Positions 11,031 to 59,499 of a DNA stretch of 64,000 nucleotides are shown in pieces. The stretch is taken from assembly GCA_002803225.1 (NCBI GenBank), contig NXFV01001227.1, positions 29,559 through 93,558 of the forward strand, given 5' to 3'. Positions within the stretch are counted from its first letter, which is position 1. The number at the start of each line of letters is the position of its first letter. A model generated the notes under the pieces. It was not told where the DNA came from. It did not search any database and worked only from the letters and a program-made list of their open reading frames with translations. The DNA is from Gamarada debralockiae (Eukaryota; Ascomycota; Leotiomycetes; Helotiales; Hyphodiscaceae). Both the position numbers and the translations under genes were made by a program.

Positions 11031-12924
11031 ATGTCCATCAAGAACCACAACCACGACCTGTGTAAGTCCGGTACTCCTAATGAAATCGAGGAGATCGAAG
11101 TCATCCGCACCATTTCACGCGTCCCCGGGTACCCCAACTACTATGAAAAGGAAGGCATACGAACTGAAGGCGATGGAGTGGATCATAGTCATTACAACGC
11201 GGTCAGTCCTCCCCAATCCTGTCCATTCTTCCCTGCTAGTTTGGCTTGATATCAAACCTGACCAGCACTAGCGATCTATCGGATTCATTATGACAGTGTT
11301 AGGCTGTTCCTTCGCCTTGACCGGGTCTCAGATAGCCCCCCTCCTCTACCTCACTCTTGGTACCACAATCGCCGTTGAGCTACATGCAACGGCGCTAACG
11401 TTTTGGATGTTTACCGCCATCATCGTAGCTATGGGCGCTCTGGCACCCTTTGTTGGCCCACTAGCAGATCTGATTGGCCGCAAGACTATCATTCTTGTGG
11501 GTCTTGTCTTCTCTATTAGTGGCGGCATTATCTGTGCTGCTACGCCAACTGCGGCAGGTTTCATCGCCGGCCAGTGTATTCTTGGCTTTGGCGCCGTCAT
11601 CCAAGAACTCCTGGCCATCGCCGTTGTCGTAGAGATTGTCCCCACCTCGAAACGCAGTCTGTATGCTGCATTGGTACTTTGTGCCATCCTCCCCTGGTCT
11701 CCCGGCACACTCTATGCGAACTGGCTGGCTGATTACAGCTGGCGATGGATTGGTTGCATCGTGGCTATCTGGAATATGCTGACCTTGGCCATCATTGCCT
11801 TCTTCTATCGTCCCCCTCCTAGAGTGAATTCGCTCGGACTGTCTCGAAAGGAAATGTTGGGTCGGATCGACTTCGTTGGAGGAATTCTCATCACAATGGG
11901 ATTGGTCTTCTTCCTAGTCGGGCTCAATTGGGGCGGACAGGATTACCCATGGCGGTCAGCTCACGTCCTCTCGTTTCTCCTCATAGGCTCCTGCTTCATG
12001 ATAGGCTTTGGCCTCTGGGAACTTTTCGGCGCTCGCTATCCCCTTTTCCCTCGTAGGATGATTCCTGCGCCTAGGCCATTCTTCTGCTTGCTTTTTGTCA
12101 TCTTTGCAGCCGGTATCAACTATGTCCCGCTGGTCGTGTTCTGGCCGATCGAATCCATTAGCGTGTTTGGGTCGGACCACCACCAAACTGGAATTAATGC
12201 CCTCCCTATCGCAACATGTATTTTGGGGGGTGCGATCTTGTCAGCTCTCCTCATTGGGGCGTTCAAAAATTACGTCACGCTAATCATGACCTGCTTTTGT
12301 GTGATGCAAGTAGTCGGTAAGTCGCCCATCATCGAGCAATTTGATCATTTTACCGTTTTCAGGCCGTGGGCTCATTGATTATTAGCATCTGCTTGTCTCA
12401 CAATCATCAACCCTCAAGACATCCGCACAGCTTGGCCTCCTATCGTGCTGGCCTTGATTGGGGTTGGCGGGGTGCTCGTTCCCAACCAAGTCATCATAAC
12501 TGTCATCATTCCCGACGACCTCATTGCGTCAGTGACAGCACTGACGGTGGGTTTGCGATCGCAGGCTCAGGTGATTGGACTGGCCATCTTCTATAACCGC
12601 TTTGTGCACGAGGTGACCCAAAATGCCTATAAGGAGGTGGTGCCAGCCATGCTTGCCGTCGGAGTCTACAATCCAACCGTGATCGAGGACTTGGTGACTA
12701 GCCTCACTGCCGTACCCTTCTACCAATACGCGCCCTTGATCCCCGAGCTCAACATTACAGCCAATTACGAGCTCGTCAAAGAGGCCACCATTCAATGCTT
12801 CTCGCAGTCCTTTGTTCTCGTCTATTACATTACGATTCCGTTCGGGGTCGCGGCTTGTATTGCGGCAGCTTTTATGGGAGATGTATCAAAGTATATCGAT
12901 AATCATGTTGCCATTGGGCTTTAG
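11031..12924 (+). CDS. MFS transporter of the TRI12 (trichothecene/siderophore efflux) type, 584 aa
   Basis: The protein is a 14-helix-type major facilitator. A hydrophilic N-terminus of about 60 residues is followed by many membrane helices. The loop PLADLIGRKTI is the signature between helices 2 and 3, and QCILGFGAVIQELLAIAVVVEIVP corresponds to helix 4/5. The blocks YRPPPR and IPDDLIASVTALTVGLR are typical of the TRI12 subfamily, whose members export toxins or siderophores. Exons proposed: 11031-11201, 11272-12316 and 12386-12924, with introns of 70 nt (donor GTCAGT) and 69 nt (donor GTAAGT). The start is the first ATG in frame with the hydrophilic leader. It lies about 2.2 kb from the UstYa genes, so it may export their product; that link is inference from proximity. 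Confidence 0.9.
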
Positions 12925-15106: not shown

Positions 15107-16182
15107 CTATACTACACTATCTCCAATTCTTTGACCCTCTTGTGGTCGTAATGGGTCCTCTACTTTAGTATGAAATTCAAACTTTCTTAATCTATGTTCA
15201 ACCGCCCACTCTTGAATTTTCTCGAAGTTACGACAGGTATGGGTTACTTCGGCATACACGCGTGCTCCTGGGTTCTTGTGCCAGTCTTCCCACCTCCAAT
15301 AATGTGTGCTAATGTCCGAGTGGCAAGTAATGAGTTGCCGGATCGAGTCGACACAGTGTTCTGGGTTCAGTCAGTCAAACGAACTTAGACATTATTTCTA
15401 GGTCTAATAAAAGACGAAAATAGAACCATACCTAAGTGTTCCATACTTATTTCTCTTAGATGATTACCATCCCACATCGTCCAGTTGTAACGTTCGGGGT
15501 ATAGAGCTCGACGGACGATGTTCTAATCTAGGTTAAAGCACGGAGCAAAAGAAAATAAGATGACGTTGTAACTTACCAGGCAGTGGAGTTGGTGGAAAAC
15601 ATCTAACATAACAATATAATTATCCTCATCGCCAGGGACTGGAACAGTCCAGTTTGTGAGTTGTGCTGCGTCGGAACGATGAATTTTGTTGATTCCGGCT
15701 AAAAAATTATGAGCAGTTAGACATATAATGAACAAGAGCGATAAAAGAGCCAAAATTGAAAGTACTCACCTTTATACAAGTCTTCCCAAGCTAGATCAGT
15801 GCTATCATCTGGGAGTCCGCCTTCTTTCGGGGGCATGTAAGGAGTGCGTGGGCTCCGTTGAGCCTGGAAGGTGACGGTCTTGTACTCCACAACGCCATTT
15901 GCAGGAGCTGTTTTGCCGTTAGCAAAGCATCTGAATGAAGAGTAGAAACATCGAAGCATTACAAAACAAAGCCAGAGTGGGATCTCGCGGAAACATTAGA
16001 TACCAAAACAACGCCAACACAAGAACCGCATTGACTAGGTATAATATGAGGAAATGTCCATTTCGGGTAGTCCAAGAACGCCACGACTTGTTCTTTTTTG
16101 TAGGATCTGCTCTCTGAGAGTATTCTTTCTGCTCCGGACACAGCAGTGCCTCTGTCGACTGCACATCATCCGGGTCATCCAT
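15107..16182 (-). CDS. UstYa-like (DUF3328) oxidative cyclase candidate 1, 274 aa
   Basis: UstYa-family proteins are small membrane-anchored enzymes that act oxidatively on fungal peptides, for example ring closure in ustiloxin, asperipin and cyclochlorotine pathways. Five exons on the minus strand: 16182-15963, 15907-15770, 15698-15577, 15522-15432 and 15360-15107. All joins keep frame; donors are GTAATG, GTGAGT, GTAAGT and GTATGG, and an intron branch site GCTAAC is visible. Order of parts: acidic N-terminus, one membrane helix (FLILYLVNAVLVLALFWYLM), the entry block SPANGVVEYKTVTF, NWTVPVPGDEDNYIV, the first metal-type motif FHQLHCL, then EHCVDSIRQ and C-terminal HTCRNFEKIQEW. Both histidine motifs are intact, so an active enzyme is likely. 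It lies first in a three-gene UstYa group beside a repeat precursor. Confidence 0.9.
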
Positions 16183-17247
16183 CCTTGCAACAAATACTCG
16201 ATTTGATTTGGATATTAGGAGAAGAGCACTCGAGGAAGAAGTTTCTATGACGCAGATTTATTTGAAGAACGACGAGAGCGGTGACAGCAAAAATTGGTAT
16301 TACCTTCGCGTGAGCACCTTAGCGTAAATGTATGTATCTTATCAAGTCGAGAAGGTCTCATTCACCATTGCTGGCAAATCATTTGTAATGATGGCCGCTT
16401 TAAGAACATGTCAAGTGAACAATGACACCTATAGACATGCTTTGTGGAGCTTTTGGAACTTATCCGGGATGACGGAAAGTGCGAGAAATCACAGTGGGGC
16501 ATGAGTCAGTTAGTAATCTCTTATTTTAAGAGGAAATTGCGGGGCATTTACTCTAAAAGGAAATTGTACACGAGGTATTTTGCGGCATGAGGAGCGGTGA
16601 GCTATGGGGGAAAATTAGGCATCGGTTTAAGCTTTGTGATTTCAATTCTGAGATGAGGATAAGCTGAAGGAGGTCAGGGGCAAATGAGGGGCAAGTGGGG
16701 TGGGAGCTTCGGAATTCTTCTACGTCGACTATACCGATATTAGGGCCGAGCTTTAAGCTGAGCTTGCAGTAGTAACGTAAAGTAAGGCTTAGATAGATAG
16801 GCTATTGAGAGTAGTCGCCTGATAGGCTTTTCCAAATATATTGCTACATAGTACGTATAGCACTGCCTAGTACTACATCGGCTTGAGATATCGTCACCGA
16901 CTTTACTGTACCCACGGAGAGTTGACCGAGACGGGCAGGATTCGAAGGAGCTAGCGCCTTTACTACTGCTGACATACAGGTAAGCTGAGTACTACATAGT
17001 CCTTTGCTTTCACATCATTCGCGAGGCATCATTGCTTATCTTACTAAAAAAATACGCCTACTAGCCTTAGTTATGAAGATAACTATAGTTATAGGTTAAT
17101 GGTAATTACCGTTTGGCGGAGCAAGACCAGTCCTCGTATCTCCAATTATTACTATTCGTTGGGCACTTCTGCCTCGGATGAAAACATCTAACATGCATTT
17201 GGAGACAAATCTTATTTGATATTAAACAAGTCCAATCATAGGATCTG
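16183..17247. other. Spacer between two UstYa-like genes
   Basis: No ORF of note. The right edge of the first UstYa gene has its promoter here (minus-strand gene starting at 16182), and the 3' flank of the second lies at the other end. No RNA gene or repeat recognised. Confidence 0.4.
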
Positions 17248-18456
17248 CTACTGCCTAGCTTGGTTTGAATGCTTGTTGTCCTGCATTTTCACCCAAGCTG
17301 GTTCTGCCATCTGCTTTGCTCCTTCTGGTTTCCTTAGATGAGCATAGCTTTCGGGTCGATTTGCGTGCTCTTGATTCCACTCTATGAGAGCTTCATAGTC
17401 TCGACATTTGTGCTGGGTATTGAAGTCGGCCGACAGCCTTGGATATCCTTCGACCCATACACCGGTGATTAATGTGACATCTGCGCTGCACATAACTACC
17501 TGACGCAATATATCGACACAATGATCTGTTAAGAGAGACACCTTAGCATAAAAAATATCATTTACCGAGTTATATTATATGTAACGACTTTGTAAAAGAA
17601 CGTACCTAAGTGTAGTCGCAATAGTTGCTCGCCATCAGTGAATGCCTGCACAGTATCTTCGTAGTACTCCCTGTATGTATATTGCCTCAGAAAATTCTAT
17701 GGCTTAATTCAGTATGTGGTTTCCAAAGGCTCCAAAAGGATGTTTCATTTCAACTTACTACGCAATGCATCTGGTGAAACATTTCAAGTCCAGCAACATA
17801 TCCGCCCCCAGTTTCTTCTGGGAACTTCACAGCATACTCCAAATTCTCAGTCTTGTTGATCCGGTGCATAACGTCCTCATCCACGGCAAAGTTACCGCCT
17901 ATAACAAAATTTATTAGAACAAGCCCGTAGTTGAAGTGAATAGTGGTTGATTACCATGAATCAGACGGTCCCATGCTTCTTCCAGTTCAGGCCGAGGTGT
18001 GCCTTTGTAGACATTTTTCAGATCAAATGTAGCTTCGAATTCATACGTCTTGTACTTGATAGCATCAAGAGCAGGTGCTTTTATTAATTAGCTTTAGAAA
18101 ATCAATACAATTGAGAGTGACAAACAGTAGGTGGACACTTTCTCATTGCAATGAGCATCAAAGTGCCTATTTTCCTCCCTTGCATATTCCAGGGTCGCCG
18201 TGGACTGCAATTTGGCAACGTGGGCAGATATGAAAAGAACGATGGCCACTGCAAGAACCGCGAAGTTGATTGCAAACACCCATAGATGTGAAATTCTTGC
18301 AACGTCTCGTCGCAGATAATGAAATTTAGCCAGAGTTTGACCGTTCTGAGTTAGGAGGGTAGTTGAAGATGCATTGCCATCGGATTGCTCTTTGAATTCC
18401 TGGTCCTCCAGGTCAGTTGTCTCGACAGGTTGATATTCCGCATTTTGAATAGCCAT
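17248..18456 (-). CDS. UstYa-like (DUF3328) oxidative cyclase candidate 2, 320 aa
   Basis: Five minus-strand exons: 18456-18126, 18077-17955, 17898-17759, 17696-17606 and 17525-17248. The joins keep frame (total 963 nt). Donors include GTTTGT, GTAATC, GTAAGT and GTACGT. The protein has a hydrophilic N-terminus, one membrane helix (HLWVFAINFAVLAVAIVLFI), then SPALDAIKYKTYEFEA, EETGGGYVAGLEMFHQMHCV with the first HxxHC motif, and DHCVDILRQVVMCSADV with the second. The C-terminal block HKCRDYEALIEWNQEH is typical. The start is set at 18456 rather than the upstream in-frame ATG at 18561, because the usual N-terminus before the helix is short and charged. It points away from the precursor gene, sharing a 0.67-kb intergenic region with it. 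Confidence 0.9.
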
Positions 18457-19130
18457 GTTGAGAAGGCCATACAATTCGGTAGAAAAAGGTGGACAGAACT
18501 TCGCTATAGAATATGAAGTGTACAGTACTTCGTTTGTACGAATGTGAAGTTTTTTTTCCACCTTTCCGCATATTATTGTACCTCACCGTGGCAATGCCGG
18601 ATGCTCAATAAGCCGTCTAAGCCGTTCTGGCGGCTTGTGCCCGACAGCAAAGCTAGACATGGGTTCTGCTGATTACAGTGAATATGCATATTATTAGTCT
18701 GAGAATATATCCGCTAAGTTCTAGAATGATTGCGCTAATGTTCTTGCTAATTAGTCACTTCAAGGGTTGCAAGGGATTAAGTGGACAATTATTTCCTTTT
18801 CGAGGCATGCAAAGACTTAGCAGGTTCCCAGGGGCGCGGATGGCGAACAGATGCTAACTTATGCCCCGATTTGGAGTAAGAGCCGAGGCTTAGAGCGGAT
18901 GCATAGCAGCTATACTTTTTAGAACGCACGAGACTCAGGTTCTGGGGTTGCGAAAACCATCTTGGACTTTCGTTGAATCTTACCAATTCCCTGATATATA
19001 ACACCAACCTTTCATTGCCGCAGGATAACCCGTCCAGCAACAACGAACGAAAAACTCTGTTTCAACGCTGGAAATTTTGAATACTAATTGGAGTCAATCT
19101 CTAAGTCACCATCCACTGTCAAACAACAAA
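18457..19130. promoter_or_regulatory. Shared divergent promoter region of UstYa-like gene 2 and the repeat precursor
   Basis: The two genes start head to head about 670 bases apart, which would allow joint control. No TATA or regulator site stands out with confidence. The few ORFs here have no motif. Confidence 0.45.
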
Positions 19131-19486
19131 ATGAAGATCCTCAAATTCGCCGCATGCGCCACTTTGGCTGCGGCCATTTCTGCAGTTGCCATACCTGTCA
19201 CATTTGGAAATGTTCGTGGTCCTAAAATATTTTCATATTTGAATACAATGTTTCCTACTATAGTTTTGATGTTTAATTCTTACAGTGAAAGCTTACCGTT
19301 GACTTATGATAGATTGAAAAGGTGGAGACAAGCTTGCTCAAACGCTCTCCTATTGAGTCCGACTTCTATGACAAGGACGAGAAACGTTCTCCCATTGAGT
19401 CCGACTTCTACGACAAGGACGAGAAACGCACTCCCATCGAATCCGACTTCTACGACAAGGACGAGAAGCGTTCTGTTCTTGAGTAA
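19131..19486 (+). CDS. Secreted RiPP precursor with three KR-bounded 14-residue repeats, 84 aa
   Basis: Two exons are proposed, 19131-19211 and 19313-19486, with a 101-nt intron (donor GTTCGT, acceptor TAG). Exon 1 encodes a signal-peptide-like start (MKILKFAACATLAAAISAVA). Exon 2 starts with a short leader ending in LLKR, followed by three repeats: SPIESDFYDKDEKR twice, then TPIESDFYDKDEKR, and a tail SVLE. Each unit ends in Lys-Arg, the Kex2 cleavage site, as in UstA, PhomA and asperipin precursors. The matching 42-nt DNA units are nearly identical. The Tyr-containing DFYD segment is a plausible core, but the true core limits are unknown. Neighbours are UstYa-like genes on both sides. The donor is weak, so the exon 1 end is the least certain point; the repeat frame itself is seen directly. 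Confidence 0.85.
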
Positions 19487-20150
19487 AAATGCCATGTTAG
19501 ACCATCACACAGTACAAAGAGACAGAAATTAGGTTTTGGGGGATTATGCAATCATGGGCAGTGCAGTGTTCTCTTAAGCCTTTCTTCTCAATTTTTGTAC
19601 TATTAGAAGGATGAAACGAACCTAAAGTACGGATGGACTATGGGATTAAAGCCAATGAAAGAAAATTCCCGATTCTAGCAATTCAAGCACATGTGTATTT
19701 GAGTCATCTCTTCAGCTATGATTGGCGGAAATATGAGTGATCCAGGAGCTGAACTTTGAAACCTTCCGCTAAGCGTCGTATTTACATTCTCAGCACTAGG
19801 CTGAGGGCCCACAGGTTATGTTTGTCATAGCTCAAAGAATTCATTATTAACAGAATTATTTATCTTCTTCATTGCATTAGTATGGAGGCGAATTTCTCAG
19901 CGGTGAGCCAAAATCAGAGCTTATGATGCGAGCTGACACTACACTGTAATCGAAAAAGAGAGTTCCGCTTACTAATTTTGGTAGTAAAAACAGCGTTGGA
20001 GCTAGGCTTGACCAGGCCCGCTAGACAGATTCCAACGACACATAGGATTTTGTCCGTTTTTGCGCTCCCTTGTCTGTTAATTGTTTACTCCTCTATCTCT
20101 TTCAACCTCAGTCTACTTTTGACGTTGATCAACGGAAGAAATTCACGGGC
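19487..20150. other. Spacer and upstream region of UstYa-like gene 3
   Basis: 3' flank of the precursor and promoter of the next gene. No supported ORF, repeat or RNA gene. Confidence 0.4.
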
Positions 20151-21004
20151 ATGATGATTGGGAACAATTCGTTGCAGAATTCCAGTCACGACGAGGGAGA
20201 ATATCTGATAGAGGACAAAGATATCGAAAAACATGTTCTACCGCCCTCTCGAATATACCACAAAATAAAGGCTCATTCTGTAATCGAATCCTGCAGTTTT
20301 ATTCTTTCAATTCTATTGTGTGTTCTATTATTGTTAAACTTGGTTGTCATGTTCAACAACTCGAAATGCGACCCCGGAGAAACAATTTACACCAAATATC
20401 ACAAGGATACGAGATACATGACTCTTGACCATCAATACGATCACCTCTGGGATGAGTTGTCGTCAAGTAATAGGGGGGTGATACAATTTTCTGCTGCTAC
20501 TAACGGCAGTGATGCAGACGTCGCAGGGCTTAGCATGTAAGTACGAATTCAATTCTCCTTAGAAATTTTTATTCTGCAGCACAAAAATATCATATTACTG
20601 AAAACTTAAAAGGCTAAATATAAACACCAAGGTTCCATCAGCTCCACTGTTTGTCTTCATTTCGGAAAGCACTTCAGGACGCGTATGAAGGAAAAGAAGT
20701 TGCATTTGATAATACCGAGAACAAGCACTGGCCGCACTGCTTGGATTATTTGCGAATGGTATTCAATTATATTTCATGACATTATAATAATGCTATCGGA
20801 GCTCATGCTGATTACCTGGAGTAGACCATCCTTTGCTTTGCAGACGATACTCTTGAACGACCTGTAATCAAGAATGGGACAGTAACGGACACAATCAACG
20901 GACAAGATGACATTCGCCGCTGTAATTCAGTTGAACGACTTTACGATCTCGTCGAAACAAAAGGGCTACATCCGTTTCGAGACTCTCAGCCTCATACCGT
21001 ATAG
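20151..21004 (+). CDS. UstYa-like (DUF3328) oxidative cyclase candidate 3, 230 aa
   Basis: Three plus-strand exons: 20151-20536, 20632-20758 and 20825-21004. Donors are GTAAGT and GTATTC, acceptors AAG and TAG, and the total of 693 nt stays in frame. After a charged N-terminus of about 45 residues comes one membrane helix (SCSFILSILLCVLLLLNLVVMF). The block DTRYMTLDHQYDHLWDEL is followed across the first junction by the motif FHQLHCLSSFRKAL, then HWPHCLDYLRM and, across the second junction, TILCFADDTLER. This is the variant of the family with an ILC..ADDTLE block after the second motif, and it is more divergent than candidates 1 and 2. It reads in the same direction as the precursor and starts 0.66 kb after it. 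The start at 20151 is the first ATG before the conserved part; ATG 20154 is also possible. Confidence 0.88.
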
Positions 21005-23091: not shown

Positions 23092-25430
23092 GATGAACTT
23101 TCAATACTCAGGACCCGCAGTGTTGATTCAAGGCAACTCAGACACTATTATTTTTGCTCAGCTTTCTAAGCTTTGCGAGGTGTATCGAGATATGTTCGAA
23201 GTACGATAGCCCTAGTTGAAAATGACAGACGCAAGTTCATTCCAAGACGATCTTCCAACACGTTCGTTCAAGTCCAATAATGGCTGCGACTTCTGCACTC
23301 TCGTGTGGGCAATCACATGGGACAGAGATGTGAAATATGAAACTGAAACCTTGTACGCGCTGAGCGTGCTTTGGGGCACTCCAGAAGAGAGATTCCAGTC
23401 TCAGGTTCTGGTAATTCGTCACCAGTGTAACTTCTCACTCCTATTTGTGAGCGTTGACTTTGCCTTAATTGATAGTGGTTCATTGGTTGATTTTCTTCTC
23501 GTAGTGGCACAGGTTCGCTGACATGGTGAGACTCCGATGGGAAGTTTAATAGAGAGCATCATCAAAGTTTGACGAGCACTACGTCCTTCTCTACGGAGAG
23601 CAACCTCATTCTCTGCCGAAATTGGTACGAAACTTGCAAAGCAGAACGCAAGGGCTGCTATCTTCAAACTGGCACCGACTATCGGGCTCCCAACCCGATT
23701 GTTAGATCTTGAGACTTCACAAGATGTTGTCCGACTTTGTCTCGGTAAAAATCTTCTCGATCAGCCTTCCTATATGATTTTAAGTCACTGCTGGGGCAAG
23801 TCGGGACTTGATGGGGAGTTTAAGATGCTAACAAATTCCACTTTGGGATCTCTCATGAGTGGAATCTCAATACAAAATCCAAGTCACACTTTTCAGGAAG
23901 CCATATTCGTCACCGGGAGCTTAGGAAGTAGATATCTATGGATTGATGCCTTGTGTATCATCCAAGGAAATGCGGAGGACTGGGAGAGAGAAAGCGCTTC
24001 AATGACGATAGTTTATGAGTTTTCTCAGCTCAACATAGCAGCGTCGGCGGCAAGCAAGGGAGTGAGGGGTATTTTCAGGATCCTGATCTCATCCGAACTG
24101 TCAAAGTCAACATCGCGATGGATGTCTCAAATTCACGAGGTATGGCCGCTCTCTGTAGTCCAAACTGGCTTCACCTTACGGCTCAGATACAAAGTTCCCC
24201 ACTTGCTCAACGGGTATGGGTTTTTCAAGAAACTTACCTGGTCGCACGGACTCTGTATTTCACAGGCACTCATATTTGGTGGGGTGTGTACAACATATGT
24301 GCTGCGAGACGTTTCCTCGAGAACTTCTCTGCAAAGGGTGGAGGCCAACAATTCCAAGCTCGAAAGAAGGCAATCATGGGGGTTATGAACCACTGATACA
24401 ATATAGTCAACCTCTTTTCAAAAGGTTGTCTCATCTTCGAGTCTGACAAGCTTGTATCATTATCCGGTGTAGCAAAACATTATGCTCAGCTGTACAAAAT
24501 GATAGGAGACTATCTCGCGGATCGGTGAGACCGTACCTTATTGATGAAATTTGTTGGGTTCCAGAAGGCTGTTATCGTTCAAGTAGACATCACCCTATCC
24601 CAACTTGGTCATGGGCTTCGGTCATCCCCATGGAAGACTATAAAGACAAATTAAACAATGACAACTTCGGTAGTGTCACTCACTGTTATTTGAGACACCA
24701 GAGAAGTCAACTCCAACTCCGTGCCAAAGTTCTCGGATCAGAGGTAAAAGGGGTCCATGAACCCTATGGACCAGTACAAGGAGGTTTCATACGGCTGAAG
24801 AGTAAAGCTCTAATCCACTGGACCCTTGGCGACATGACAATGGACCAACCGAGCCATAATATCTTCATGCCAAGATGTTCTCTTGGATTTTGCCATAGGA
24901 AGAAAACCCTTCTGACGCAGTGTAACAGCTACAGGTAGCTGGAGGGCAACAGGAGGAGTCACAATATATTAGAGAAATAGCTGTAGGGGAAAAGAGATAG
25001 TAATGGTTGTATTCCTGACCATTCGTACTATCTGATTTCCGAAAATACTCAAGCTTACCCTTCTTCAAGTAGAGTTGGCAAGCCTTACTTATACTTCACA
25101 TAGCAGCTGTACTAGCAGCTGACTCTGATTCCGAGCCCTCCGGGCTCCTGCAGGCTGGGATTACCCCTCCATGATCTGCATAGCCTAGCCTGTTCCTTCA
25201 GGGCCTAGGGTTCTATTACTCGCAGAAGTAGCACTGTTTCTCCTGCGACTTAAGATGGATCTAATTAAGTTAGAAGGCTCCAATTAAGAGGCTCTCGGTA
25301 TTGCTGCTTGGTGATAGAGAGGTTTCAAGAGGGACTGAGTTGTATCGACGCATTGATTTCGCACAGATGCATGATGGATATCTGGACTATTTGGAGGGAA
25401 AAGAGGGAACTATAACAGTCAAAAAGTAGG
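23092..25430 (+). pseudogene. HET-domain gene, broken by frameshifts, stops and an insertion
   Basis: Successive plus-strand pieces fit one HET protein. They include a Cys-bearing N-terminal part with CDFCTLVW (about 23285), the core YMILSHCWGKSG, YLWIDALCIIQGNAEDWE and a SQLNIAASAASKG segment (to about 24070), then in another frame the block LAQRVWVFQETYLVART and ARRFLENF (to about 24390). Next come FESDKLVSLSGVAKHYAQL and, after a further shift near 24530, LIDEICWVPEG and HPIPTWSWASV. The end-type block YRRIDFAQMHDGYLD sits at about 25340. Lesions are a frameshift near 24070, a stop at about 24394 and a stop/shift near 24527. Non-homologous DNA of about 400 bp (24922-25320) starts TGTAACAGCTAC and is a likely insertion. 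No intact protein can be made. Confidence 0.75.
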
Positions 25431-52695: not shown

Positions 52696-53187
52696 GTAAA
52701 AGGTCTGGGACGTTGTAACTGGCTCCCTCTAACAGACGCTCGAACATAGTAGTTTAGCCGGCTCAGTAGTATTCTCGTATGACTTGAAGCTGCTGGCATC
52801 AGCATCAGAGGATAGTACAGTCAAGGTCTGGGACGCCGCAACTGGCTCTCTCCAACAGATACTTGAACATAGCGGTTGGGTCAGGTCAGTAGCATTCTCG
52901 CACAACTCAAAGCTACTGGCATCAGCGTCGTTTGATCACACAGTCAAGGTCTGGGATACTGCAACTAGCTCCCTCCAGCAGATACTTGAACATAGTAATT
53001 GGGTCAACTCAGTAGTATTCTCACACGACTCAAAGCTACTTGCATCAGCGTCAAGCAATTATACTGTCAAGGTCTGGGACTCCGCAACTGGCTCCCTCCA
53101 ACAGACGCTTGAACATAGAAATTCAGTCAACTCAGTAGTATTCTCGCACGACTCAAAGCTGCTGGAGTCTCTGTCGACTGCTTAGGG
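52696..53187 (+). pseudogene. WD40-repeat fragment from an NLR-type (HET-E-like) gene
   Basis: Four near-identical repeats of 123 bases (41 residues), with blocks such as STVKVWDAATGSLQQILEH and SHDSKLLASAS, have units about 85-90% alike. This high internal similarity is typical of the C-terminal WD40 domain of NACHT-type incompatibility genes such as HET-E. No NACHT or HET domain is present and the reading frame starts and ends abruptly. The last 24 bases (53164-53187) are identical to 50503-50526 of the F-box gene and then meet the Copia fragment. This is a pasted fragment, not a working gene. Confidence 0.65.
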
Positions 53188-58292: not shown

Positions 58293-59246
58293 TTACATTA
58301 CTCTGCTCTTTCCTTTTTGTGTCTCTGCTTCTACCTCAGCTACCCATTGGTCTATCCACTCCTCATCAACCCATGCAACGTTGTTTTCCCGTAGCCATGA
58401 TGACCAACTAACGACTGCGCTTCCAACGCTGAACAGGTAGCCTGACGTCGATCGCCGAGTGTCGAGGTCTTCTGCCCAATCAGAGTCTGTATAGCCGGTG
58501 AGCGCGGCCAATTGTCCTCGAAAGACGAGTACGTAGTTTATCGTTTTTCGGAGGTATCTGAAGATGCGCTGGACAGCCGATCGGTGTTGTTGCGTAGGTC
58601 TTGCCGCATATCTGCTGACTGCTGAGACGGCGAACGCGATGTCTGGTCGAGTCCCGAGCATGGCGTACATGAGTGAGCCAATAGCCTTCTGGTACCACTT
58701 GATCTCTCCACGGGTCGGCTCAAAAGCTGGCTCTGCCTTTCGCAGCTTGTTGTGTGTATCAATTGGTGTATCGTTCTTCAAGCTGCAGTTCCACATTTGG
58801 AATTCTCGTAGAACCTTTTCAATATAACCTTGCTGGCTCAGCTTCAGAGTCCGATTAGGTCGATCACGTGTAACTTCCATCCCTAAGTAGTATTTGCATG
58901 GCCCTAAGTCTGTCATGTGGAACCGTTCGTTTAGCTTTGCCTTGATATCGTTAATGTCTGTGGGAGATGGACCAATTATGAGGAGGTCGTCGACAAATAT
59001 GGCTATATAATTGCCTTTCGAGTCAAAGAAGATGCAATTGTCGGAGGTGAGAGGTTTAAATCCAAGAGACTCGAGATAGGTAGTAAGAGTGAAGTACCAG
59101 ACGTGCGGTGATTGCTTGAGGCCATAAAGTGCCTTGCGTAGCTTACAGACCTTGTCTGATTGGCCAGATTCGTTGAAGCCGTCAGGTTGCTCGACGTAAA
59201 CTTCGACGTCAATGTCTCCGTAAACAGCCCTTCTGAAATCGCCCAT
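58293..59246 (-). pseudogene. Copia reverse transcriptase/RNase H fragment
   Basis: A 317-residue minus-strand frame. It starts inside the RVT_2 domain (VCKLRKALYGLKQSPHVWY, then IFVDDLLI with the catalytic DD), followed by KYYLGMEVTRD, GSLMYAMLGTRPDIAFAVSAVSRY and RNase H-side YTDSDWAEDLDTRRSTSGY. It lacks gag, protease and integrase and diverges in its last residues (VAWVDEEWIDQWVAEVEAE), which are not of the RNase H type and so may come from a deletion or shift. Its relation to the Copia gag at 53 kb is not shown. Confidence 0.8.
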
Positions 59247-59499
59247 GAACCTGCATTCCTTATACTTCTGTTACATTGCCTCTTGATTCGCAGCGCAGTC
59301 GGGAAGCGCTATACTCACATTTCGTTCCTTCTACAATATAATAAAGAAATCTTTACTAAGGAAACTACTAATTCTCCCTATACCTATATAATAACACTTT
59401 ATATAACCTGTGACCTATTTCCTGGGCCCGGCCTAGGAAATCAGAAATGAGGGACTACAACTTGTCCAAAGTAAGAAAAACATTAAGGACATAGAAATA

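Follow-up and report, generated by a model that had tools for sequence, protein, structure and literature searches.

A candidate dikaritin-type peptide cluster with three UstYa genes around a Lys-Arg repeat precursor in Gamarada debralockiae

The helotialean ascomycete Gamarada debralockiae harbors, within about 6 kb, three genes of the UstYa (DUF3328) family around a small gene for a secreted-type precursor with peptide repeats bounded by Lys-Arg (KR) pairs. The locus lies at positions 15107-21004 of the window, that is, the whole 64-kb stretch of DNA analysed here (C581:29559-93558, contig NXFV01001227.1, from a 54.3-Mb genome in 1112 contigs). We consider it likely that these genes represent a compact and lean, asperipin-like cluster of the dikaritin type, directing the synthesis of a ribosomally synthesized and post-translationally modified peptide (RiPP). 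This reading starts from what is observed directly: the gene content, the intact HxxHC motifs, the repeat structure and a bias towards silent differences in the peptide frame.

Organization of the locus

The splice sites of all models were predicted from the sequence, with GT..AG introns of 48-101 nt. The resulting genes are the following:

15107-16182, minus strand: UstYa-A, 274 aa; five exons (16182-15963, 15907-15770, 15698-15577, 15522-15432, 15360-15107), introns of 54-71 nt.
17248-18456, minus strand: UstYa-B, 320 aa; five exons (18456-18126, 18077-17955, 17898-17759, 17696-17606, 17525-17248), introns of 48-80 nt.
19131-19486, plus strand: precursor gene, 84 aa; exons 19131-19211 and 19313-19486.
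19212-19312, plus strand: predicted precursor intron of 101 nt (GTTCGT...GATAG), by whose removal the signal-peptide frame continues into the repeat frame.
19340-19381, 19382-19423 and 19424-19465, plus strand: three 42-bp repeat units encoding KR-[S/S/T]PIESDFYDKDE, with a closing KR at 19466-19471.
20151-21004, plus strand: UstYa-C, 230 aa; three exons (20151-20536, 20632-20758, 20825-21004), introns of 95 and 66 nt.

The order is UstYa-A(-), UstYa-B(-), precursor(+) and UstYa-C(+), and the two ends of the locus are the stop codons of UstYa-A and UstYa-C, matching the limits given in an earlier, sequence-only reading of this DNA. UstYa-B and the precursor gene are divergent, with start codons 0.67 kb apart; the precursor lies 0.67 kb from both UstYa-B and UstYa-C, on either side, and 2.9 kb from UstYa-A. 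A profile search of the 54.3-Mb genome retrieved 67 exon-level UstYa matches, spread over 27 contigs (a further contig with a match, C83, was outside the repeat scan described below). A random 5.9-kb stretch would be expected to hold about 0.007 such matches, and the region 15107-21004 holds six. The observation itself is confirmed.

The three UstYa enzymes

The sequence-only reading had placed three DUF3328/UstYa genes around the precursor and had named a lack of DUF3328 matches as one of the results that would refute it; all three genes match the Pfam UstYa profile (PF11807, DUF3328; length 220, cut-off 25 bits), so that the proposed gene content is borne out. UstYa-A scores 158 bits (E 4.1e-46, profile positions 6-220), UstYa-B 202 bits (E 1.5e-59, positions 7-220) and UstYa-C 69 bits (E 6.6e-19, positions 116-213). 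In each protein the N-terminal part includes a strongly hydrophobic stretch (best Kyte-Doolittle mean over 19 residues 2.4-3.0), at residues ~44-62 in UstYa-A, ~58-76 in UstYa-B and ~50-68 in UstYa-C, and each carries the double HxxHC motif: HQLHC at 155 and HLEHC at 189 in UstYa-A, HQMHC at 193 and HLDHC at 227 in UstYa-B, HQLHC at 131 and HWPHC at 161 in UstYa-C. The four His and two Cys of the double motif are invariant in the alignment of the three proteins, as are two more Cys (C203 and C233 in UstYa-A). The possibility that the three genes are recent tandem duplicates was rejected on the basis of their identities (29% for A-B and 23% for A-C in the alignment; 38-39% over ~80 aa for B-C in a local comparison).

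A guide to the function of these residues is CctR, a DUF3328 hydroxylase described as a membrane-anchored homodimer that needs copper and dioxygen and is proposed to face the organelle lumen. Its activity is reported to require the HxxHC(x)nHxxHC motif, to which the two coppers of each monomer are assigned as a proposal (PMC12435403). According to the same source, the asperipin cyclase AprY likewise depends on copper and dioxygen.

UstYa-B, the one query compared with the PDB, had no sequence relative there, and in a protein-database search (E up to 0.001) none of its 1377 word-sharing candidates reached the threshold. The precursor likewise had none reaching the threshold among 491 word-sharing candidates (E up to 10). 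Since UstYa is a large fungal family, we read these null results as reflecting few fungal proteins in the database, and not uniqueness.

The precursor and its repeat

The predicted precursor consists of MKILKFAACATLAAAISAVA-IPVTFGN, an IEKVETSLLKR leader, three [S/S/T]PIESDFYDKDE units each followed by KR, and an SVLE tail; the first two units begin with SP and the third with TP. Judged by eye and by hydropathy, the N-terminus resembles a signal peptide, with a hydrophobic core and an AVA|IP site. Each unit contains one Tyr, one Phe and three Asp, together with Pro and Ile, and no Cys. Tandem Repeats Finder independently retrieved the array (19340-19474, period 42, 3.2 copies, score 214). These data support the small secreted precursor with KR-bounded repeats proposed from the sequence alone. 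No Pfam family matched the precursor at an E-value of 1 or below, its own genome gave no second copy of it (E up to 10), and the window contained no Rfam match at gathering thresholds.

The three copies vary at six DNA columns, and in the KR frame five of these differences are silent, the sixth changing S to T. Read one frame further on, the same columns include a single silent difference; the third frame, which has stops, has none. Given that about 18% of single changes in the unit are silent, five out of six corresponds to a binomial P of ~0.001 (~0.02 if only transitions are considered), which indicates that the KR peptide frame is under selection. This bias matters because an open frame runs from 19029 to 19532 if the intron is retained: this unspliced frame was rejected as a real gene, since only one of the six repeat differences is silent in it, and the spliced, KR-bearing frame is favoured. 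The donor of the intron, GTTCGT, has a T at the third place, as does only one of the ten other predicted introns (GTTTGT).

A predicted biosynthetic route

The route that we infer from these features is predicted throughout, from splicing, membrane topology and kexin cutting to crosslinking, the limits of the core and the biological role. The precursor would enter the endoplasmic reticulum through its signal peptide, and a Golgi kexin would cleave after each KR, releasing three copies of [S/T]PIESDFYDKDE. UstYa-A, -B and -C, acting as membrane-anchored lumenal copper oxidases, would then oxidise the peptide, probably at the Tyr of FYDKDE. At least one of them would probably form a bond between the phenol of the Tyr and the beta-carbon of a residue close by, and, since each unit has one Tyr, one Tyr-based link is expected; the remaining UstYa proteins may add a second link, a hydroxylation, a desaturation or a chlorination, the last three being reported for DUF3328 proteins of other pathways (PMC10880069). 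Cyclisation is suggested here by analogy with known clusters. The same holds for the limits of the core: on the model of the ED-flanked ustiloxin core and of the asperipin core FYYTGY, it may be placed at FYDKDE, after the acidic ESD. What remains after trimming would be short and acidic: FYDKDE most likely, or IESDFYDKDE if only the N-terminal X-Pro dipeptide is lost. The calculated [M+H]+ values are as follows:

IESDFYDKDE: 1260.527 linear, 1258.511 (-2H), 1256.495 (-4H).
FYDKDE: 816.341 linear, 814.325 (-2H), 812.310 (-4H).
SPIESDFYDKDE: 1444.611 linear, 1442.596 (-2H), 1440.580 (-4H).

Accessory functions and neighbouring genes

The 75 open reading frames (ORFs) of at least 75 aa lying in the 9.4-29.4 kb region were compared with Pfam (E up to 0.01), which retrieved UstYa, HET, TRI12, MFS_1 and a DDE_3 endonuclease, together with a weak match to Evr1_Alr. 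Domains of a methyltransferase, a flavin monooxygenase or a pyridoxal phosphate (PLP) enzyme were not seen among them, and neither was that of a reductase, although short exons could escape this search. Over the whole genome, tyrosinase gave 24 exon-level matches and peptidase S41 four, none of them on C581. The lack of tyrosinase and S41 matches on the contig and the few other domains nearby point to a lean cluster, made up of the precursor, three UstYa genes and perhaps a transporter of the major facilitator superfamily (MFS):

11272-12924, plus strand: MFS transporter of the TRI12 type, 2.2 kb beyond UstYa-A and spanning two stop-to-stop frames.

Because it is read in two such frames, this gene either has introns or is interrupted; it is a possible exporter for the cluster, and its membership is uncertain. 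As for the kexin of the proposed route, the genome holds a single match to the proprotein-convertase P-domain, a partial one (58 of 86 positions) on C647, as would be expected of a kexin gene.

A separate Pfam scan covered 86 hand-picked ORFs of the window; the families given for it are 25 of 65. HET matches occurred in four of the 86, and a HET-domain ORF lies at 23573-24388, 2.6 kb beyond UstYa-C. The DDE_3 transposase-type endonuclease was found in one of the 75 ORFs of the first scan. Farther away, 123-bp tandem repeats about 80% alike (52700-53165) overlie an ORF that looks WD40-like by eye, WD40 being among the listed families, and a Copia-like reverse transcriptase piece was placed by eye at 58293-59270, RVT_2 being listed as well.

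Comparison with known clusters

The sequence-only reading had also proposed that the locus shares its logic with the known dikaritin clusters, and the gene content supports this. A close parallel is the asperipin-2a cluster of Aspergillus flavus (aprA, aprY, aprT, aprR), which, as described in PMC6514808, combines a precursor with a DUF3328 enzyme, has a transporter and no tyrosinase among its four genes, and yields the core FYYTGY; the present locus likewise lacks a tyrosinase match on its contig, has an MFS gene of uncertain membership at 11.3-12.9 kb and shares the aromatic pair FY. It differs in its three divergent UstYa genes, where asperipin-2a has a single one, in its acidic predicted core with one Tyr, and in that no isoflavone-reductase-type domain was seen among the 75 ORFs, where short exons could be overlooked.

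The ustiloxin B cluster (ustA, ustYa, ustYb, ustQ and others) shares the signal-peptide-like start, the KR between repeats and the presence of more than one UstYa gene (PMC6514808). According to the same source, conserved ED and KR motifs flank each core of its precursor, so that acidic residues stand beside an aromatic core in both systems (ED and YAIG in ustiloxin; ESD and FYDKDE here). The ustiloxin precursor has 16 repeats whereas the present one has three, and the tyrosinase, methyltransferase, flavin monooxygenase and PLP-enzyme functions are those for which our searches of the contig or of the 75 ORFs retrieved no match. The EDYXI core motif given for ustiloxins and phomopsins in PMC6339444 is not found in [S/T]PIESDFYDKDE. 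The phomopsin cluster, as reported in PMC10880069, joins phomA to five DUF3328 genes, thus combining several DUF3328 enzymes with a ribosomal precursor as here; the core differs, and C581 has no tyrosinase or S41 match. More generally, the precursor shares its signal-peptide-like start, repeats and KR sites with the Kex2-processed repeat proteins (KEPs) surveyed in PMC7329392, and would belong to the 22% of them that have DUF3328 neighbours.

Alternative interpretations

Several points weigh against a dikaritin-type cluster. The single Tyr per unit limits the number of rings; UstYa-C covers just the C-terminal half of the PF11807 profile; relatives of the precursor were found neither in the protein database nor in its own genome; searches of the surroundings gave no tyrosinase, reductase or accessory peptidase; and the MFS gene may not belong to the cluster. 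DUF3328 enzymes, moreover, are reported also to halogenate, hydroxylate and desaturate, and to occur in nonribosomal peptide synthetase and polyketide clusters (PMC12048977, PMC10880069). The UstYa enzymes might hydroxylate, desaturate or otherwise oxidise side chains (Asp, Ile, Pro) and form no Tyr-ether ring, leaving a product that is linear or closed otherwise. This is in line with the hydroxylating activity of CctR (PMC12435403), with the Pro, Ile and three Asp offered by each repeat, and with the gene inactivations that point to PhomYc, PhomYd and PhomYe for the dehydro-Ile, dehydro-Asp and dehydro-Pro of phomopsins (PMC10880069). We nevertheless regard it as unlikely: as reported in PMC7329392, Tyr occurs in 65.6% of the repeats beside DUF3328 genes and in 38.2% of those elsewhere, and ustiloxins, asperipin-2a and phomopsins contain Tyr ether links. 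A partly decayed or silent cluster, with only UstYa-A and -B active or the precursor not spliced as modelled, would account for the shorter and lower-scoring UstYa-C, for the unusual donor and for the open unspliced frame; it appears very improbable, as each of the three UstYa models has an open frame and its full set of motifs, and as most differences between the repeats are silent once the precursor is spliced.

It is also conceivable, and to our judgement quite improbable, that the units are linear secreted peptides (pheromone, self-signal or effector) matured by Kex2, Kex1 and Ste13-like X-Pro trimming, the UstYa genes serving another purpose. Several KEPs are reported to yield linear or minimally modified products (PMC9769878), and the units start with SP, SP and TP, X-Pro dipeptides of the sort removed by Ste13 (X-Ala or X-Pro; PMC6339444), X being the one residue that varies among units. 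In that source Ste13 is not predicted to act on the ustiloxin and phomopsin precursors; an X-Pro start would set the present precursor apart from these, and the same prediction counts against the IESDFYDKDE core. Since Ala or Pro occupies about 11% of the positions in the three UstYa proteins, however, one X-Pro is a weak signal and should be taken as a hint. Three UstYa genes within 6 kb argue against linear peptides, and the pheromone-annotated KEP genes of PMC7329392 are described as having, in all but three cases, no DUF3328 neighbours. Two Cys are described for the alpha pheromones of Leotiomycetes and Sordariomycetes (PMC6339444), whereas the present repeat has none and its gene three DUF3328 neighbours; the repeat is also unlike the Pleosporales PYG-type pheromones, which lack Cys according to the same source.

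Other candidate precursors in the genome

We also checked for KR/RR-separated repeat peptides in 5-19 kb stretches around the UstYa matches of 27 contigs (26 plus the window). In the 64-kb window the scan gave one hit, the precursor at 19131-19486, and in mononucleotide-shuffled sequence (20 loci with ten shuffles each, 1.965 Mb) it gave none. Precursor-like frames were present on four of the 27 contigs (C581, C497, C1048 and C993), a lower bound, as the scan breaks precursors at stop codons and requires at least two similar peptides. The three additional candidates, judged from reading frames alone, suggest that the association of precursor and UstYa genes recurs in this genome:

C497 (L014:4003-4503): five units, each TNIYPSVGFKGDPDEKV or closely similar to it, set apart by KR; the contig is 20.9 kb long and bears UstYa matches in five groups.
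C1048 (L018:2206-2823): a KR-repeat precursor-like frame with units holding NENVIWIILAYDE, UstYa genes being present on the contig.
C993 (L022:6723-7403): a KR-repeat frame with units containing DEDLDNVICLK, which has Cys but no Tyr.

The remaining hits were set aside: further frames in L014, Lys/Arg-rich ones in L021, and the two-copy frames of L036 and L038, these last two being judged chance or other coding repeats. A region denser in UstYa than 15107-21004 is C304:62629-74320, with about seven match groups in 12 kb, where the repeat scan found no KR-repeat precursor.

Novelty and significance

The survey of Umemura covered 7878 KEPs, 1758 of them with DUF3328 among the nearest 15 genes and with 1.7 DUF3328 genes per such precursor on average (PMC7329392); the three found here exceed this average and are fewer than the five of phomopsin. 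With 1758 such neighbourhoods published and at least three more candidate loci in this genome, most of the novelty that the sequence-only reading had implied for the arrangement falls away. The same survey counts 1647 DUF3328-linked precursors in 1024 Ascomycota strains (its Table 1), about 1.6 per strain, so that the arrangement would not surprise a specialist. Overall, the sequence-only interpretation is supported in part. It called the cluster "undescribed". Five exact substrings of the repeat occurred in no searched full text, so no printed peptide there matched it, and motifs 2-6 as given in PMC6339444 differ; supplementary precursor catalogues, such as that of the 7878 KEPs of PMC7329392, were beyond this search, and since the database search was null even for UstYa-B, the claim is unproven. 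The locus very likely adds a new member to a known class of fungal peptide clusters, one whose peptide is unfamiliar, and this peptide would probably be a new fungal metabolite.

Published clusters of the dikaritin kind include those of mycotoxins and of candidate plant-infection peptides (PMC9632046), and the product may be an antagonistic or host-directed secreted metabolite. Unlikely, in our estimation, is a minimal pathway in which three copper DUF3328 enzymes carry out all the tailoring of an unusually acidic, pheromone-trimmed peptide (kexin cutting and X-Pro removal), without tyrosinase, reductase or dedicated peptidase; if true, it would combine maturation in the manner of a pheromone with the crosslinking of a RiPP, and the ring pattern of its product would be unseen before. 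As a short cluster that pairs a single small precursor with three divergent UstYa genes and has no tyrosinase match on its contig, the locus offers a clean case for assigning functions to DUF3328 subtypes.

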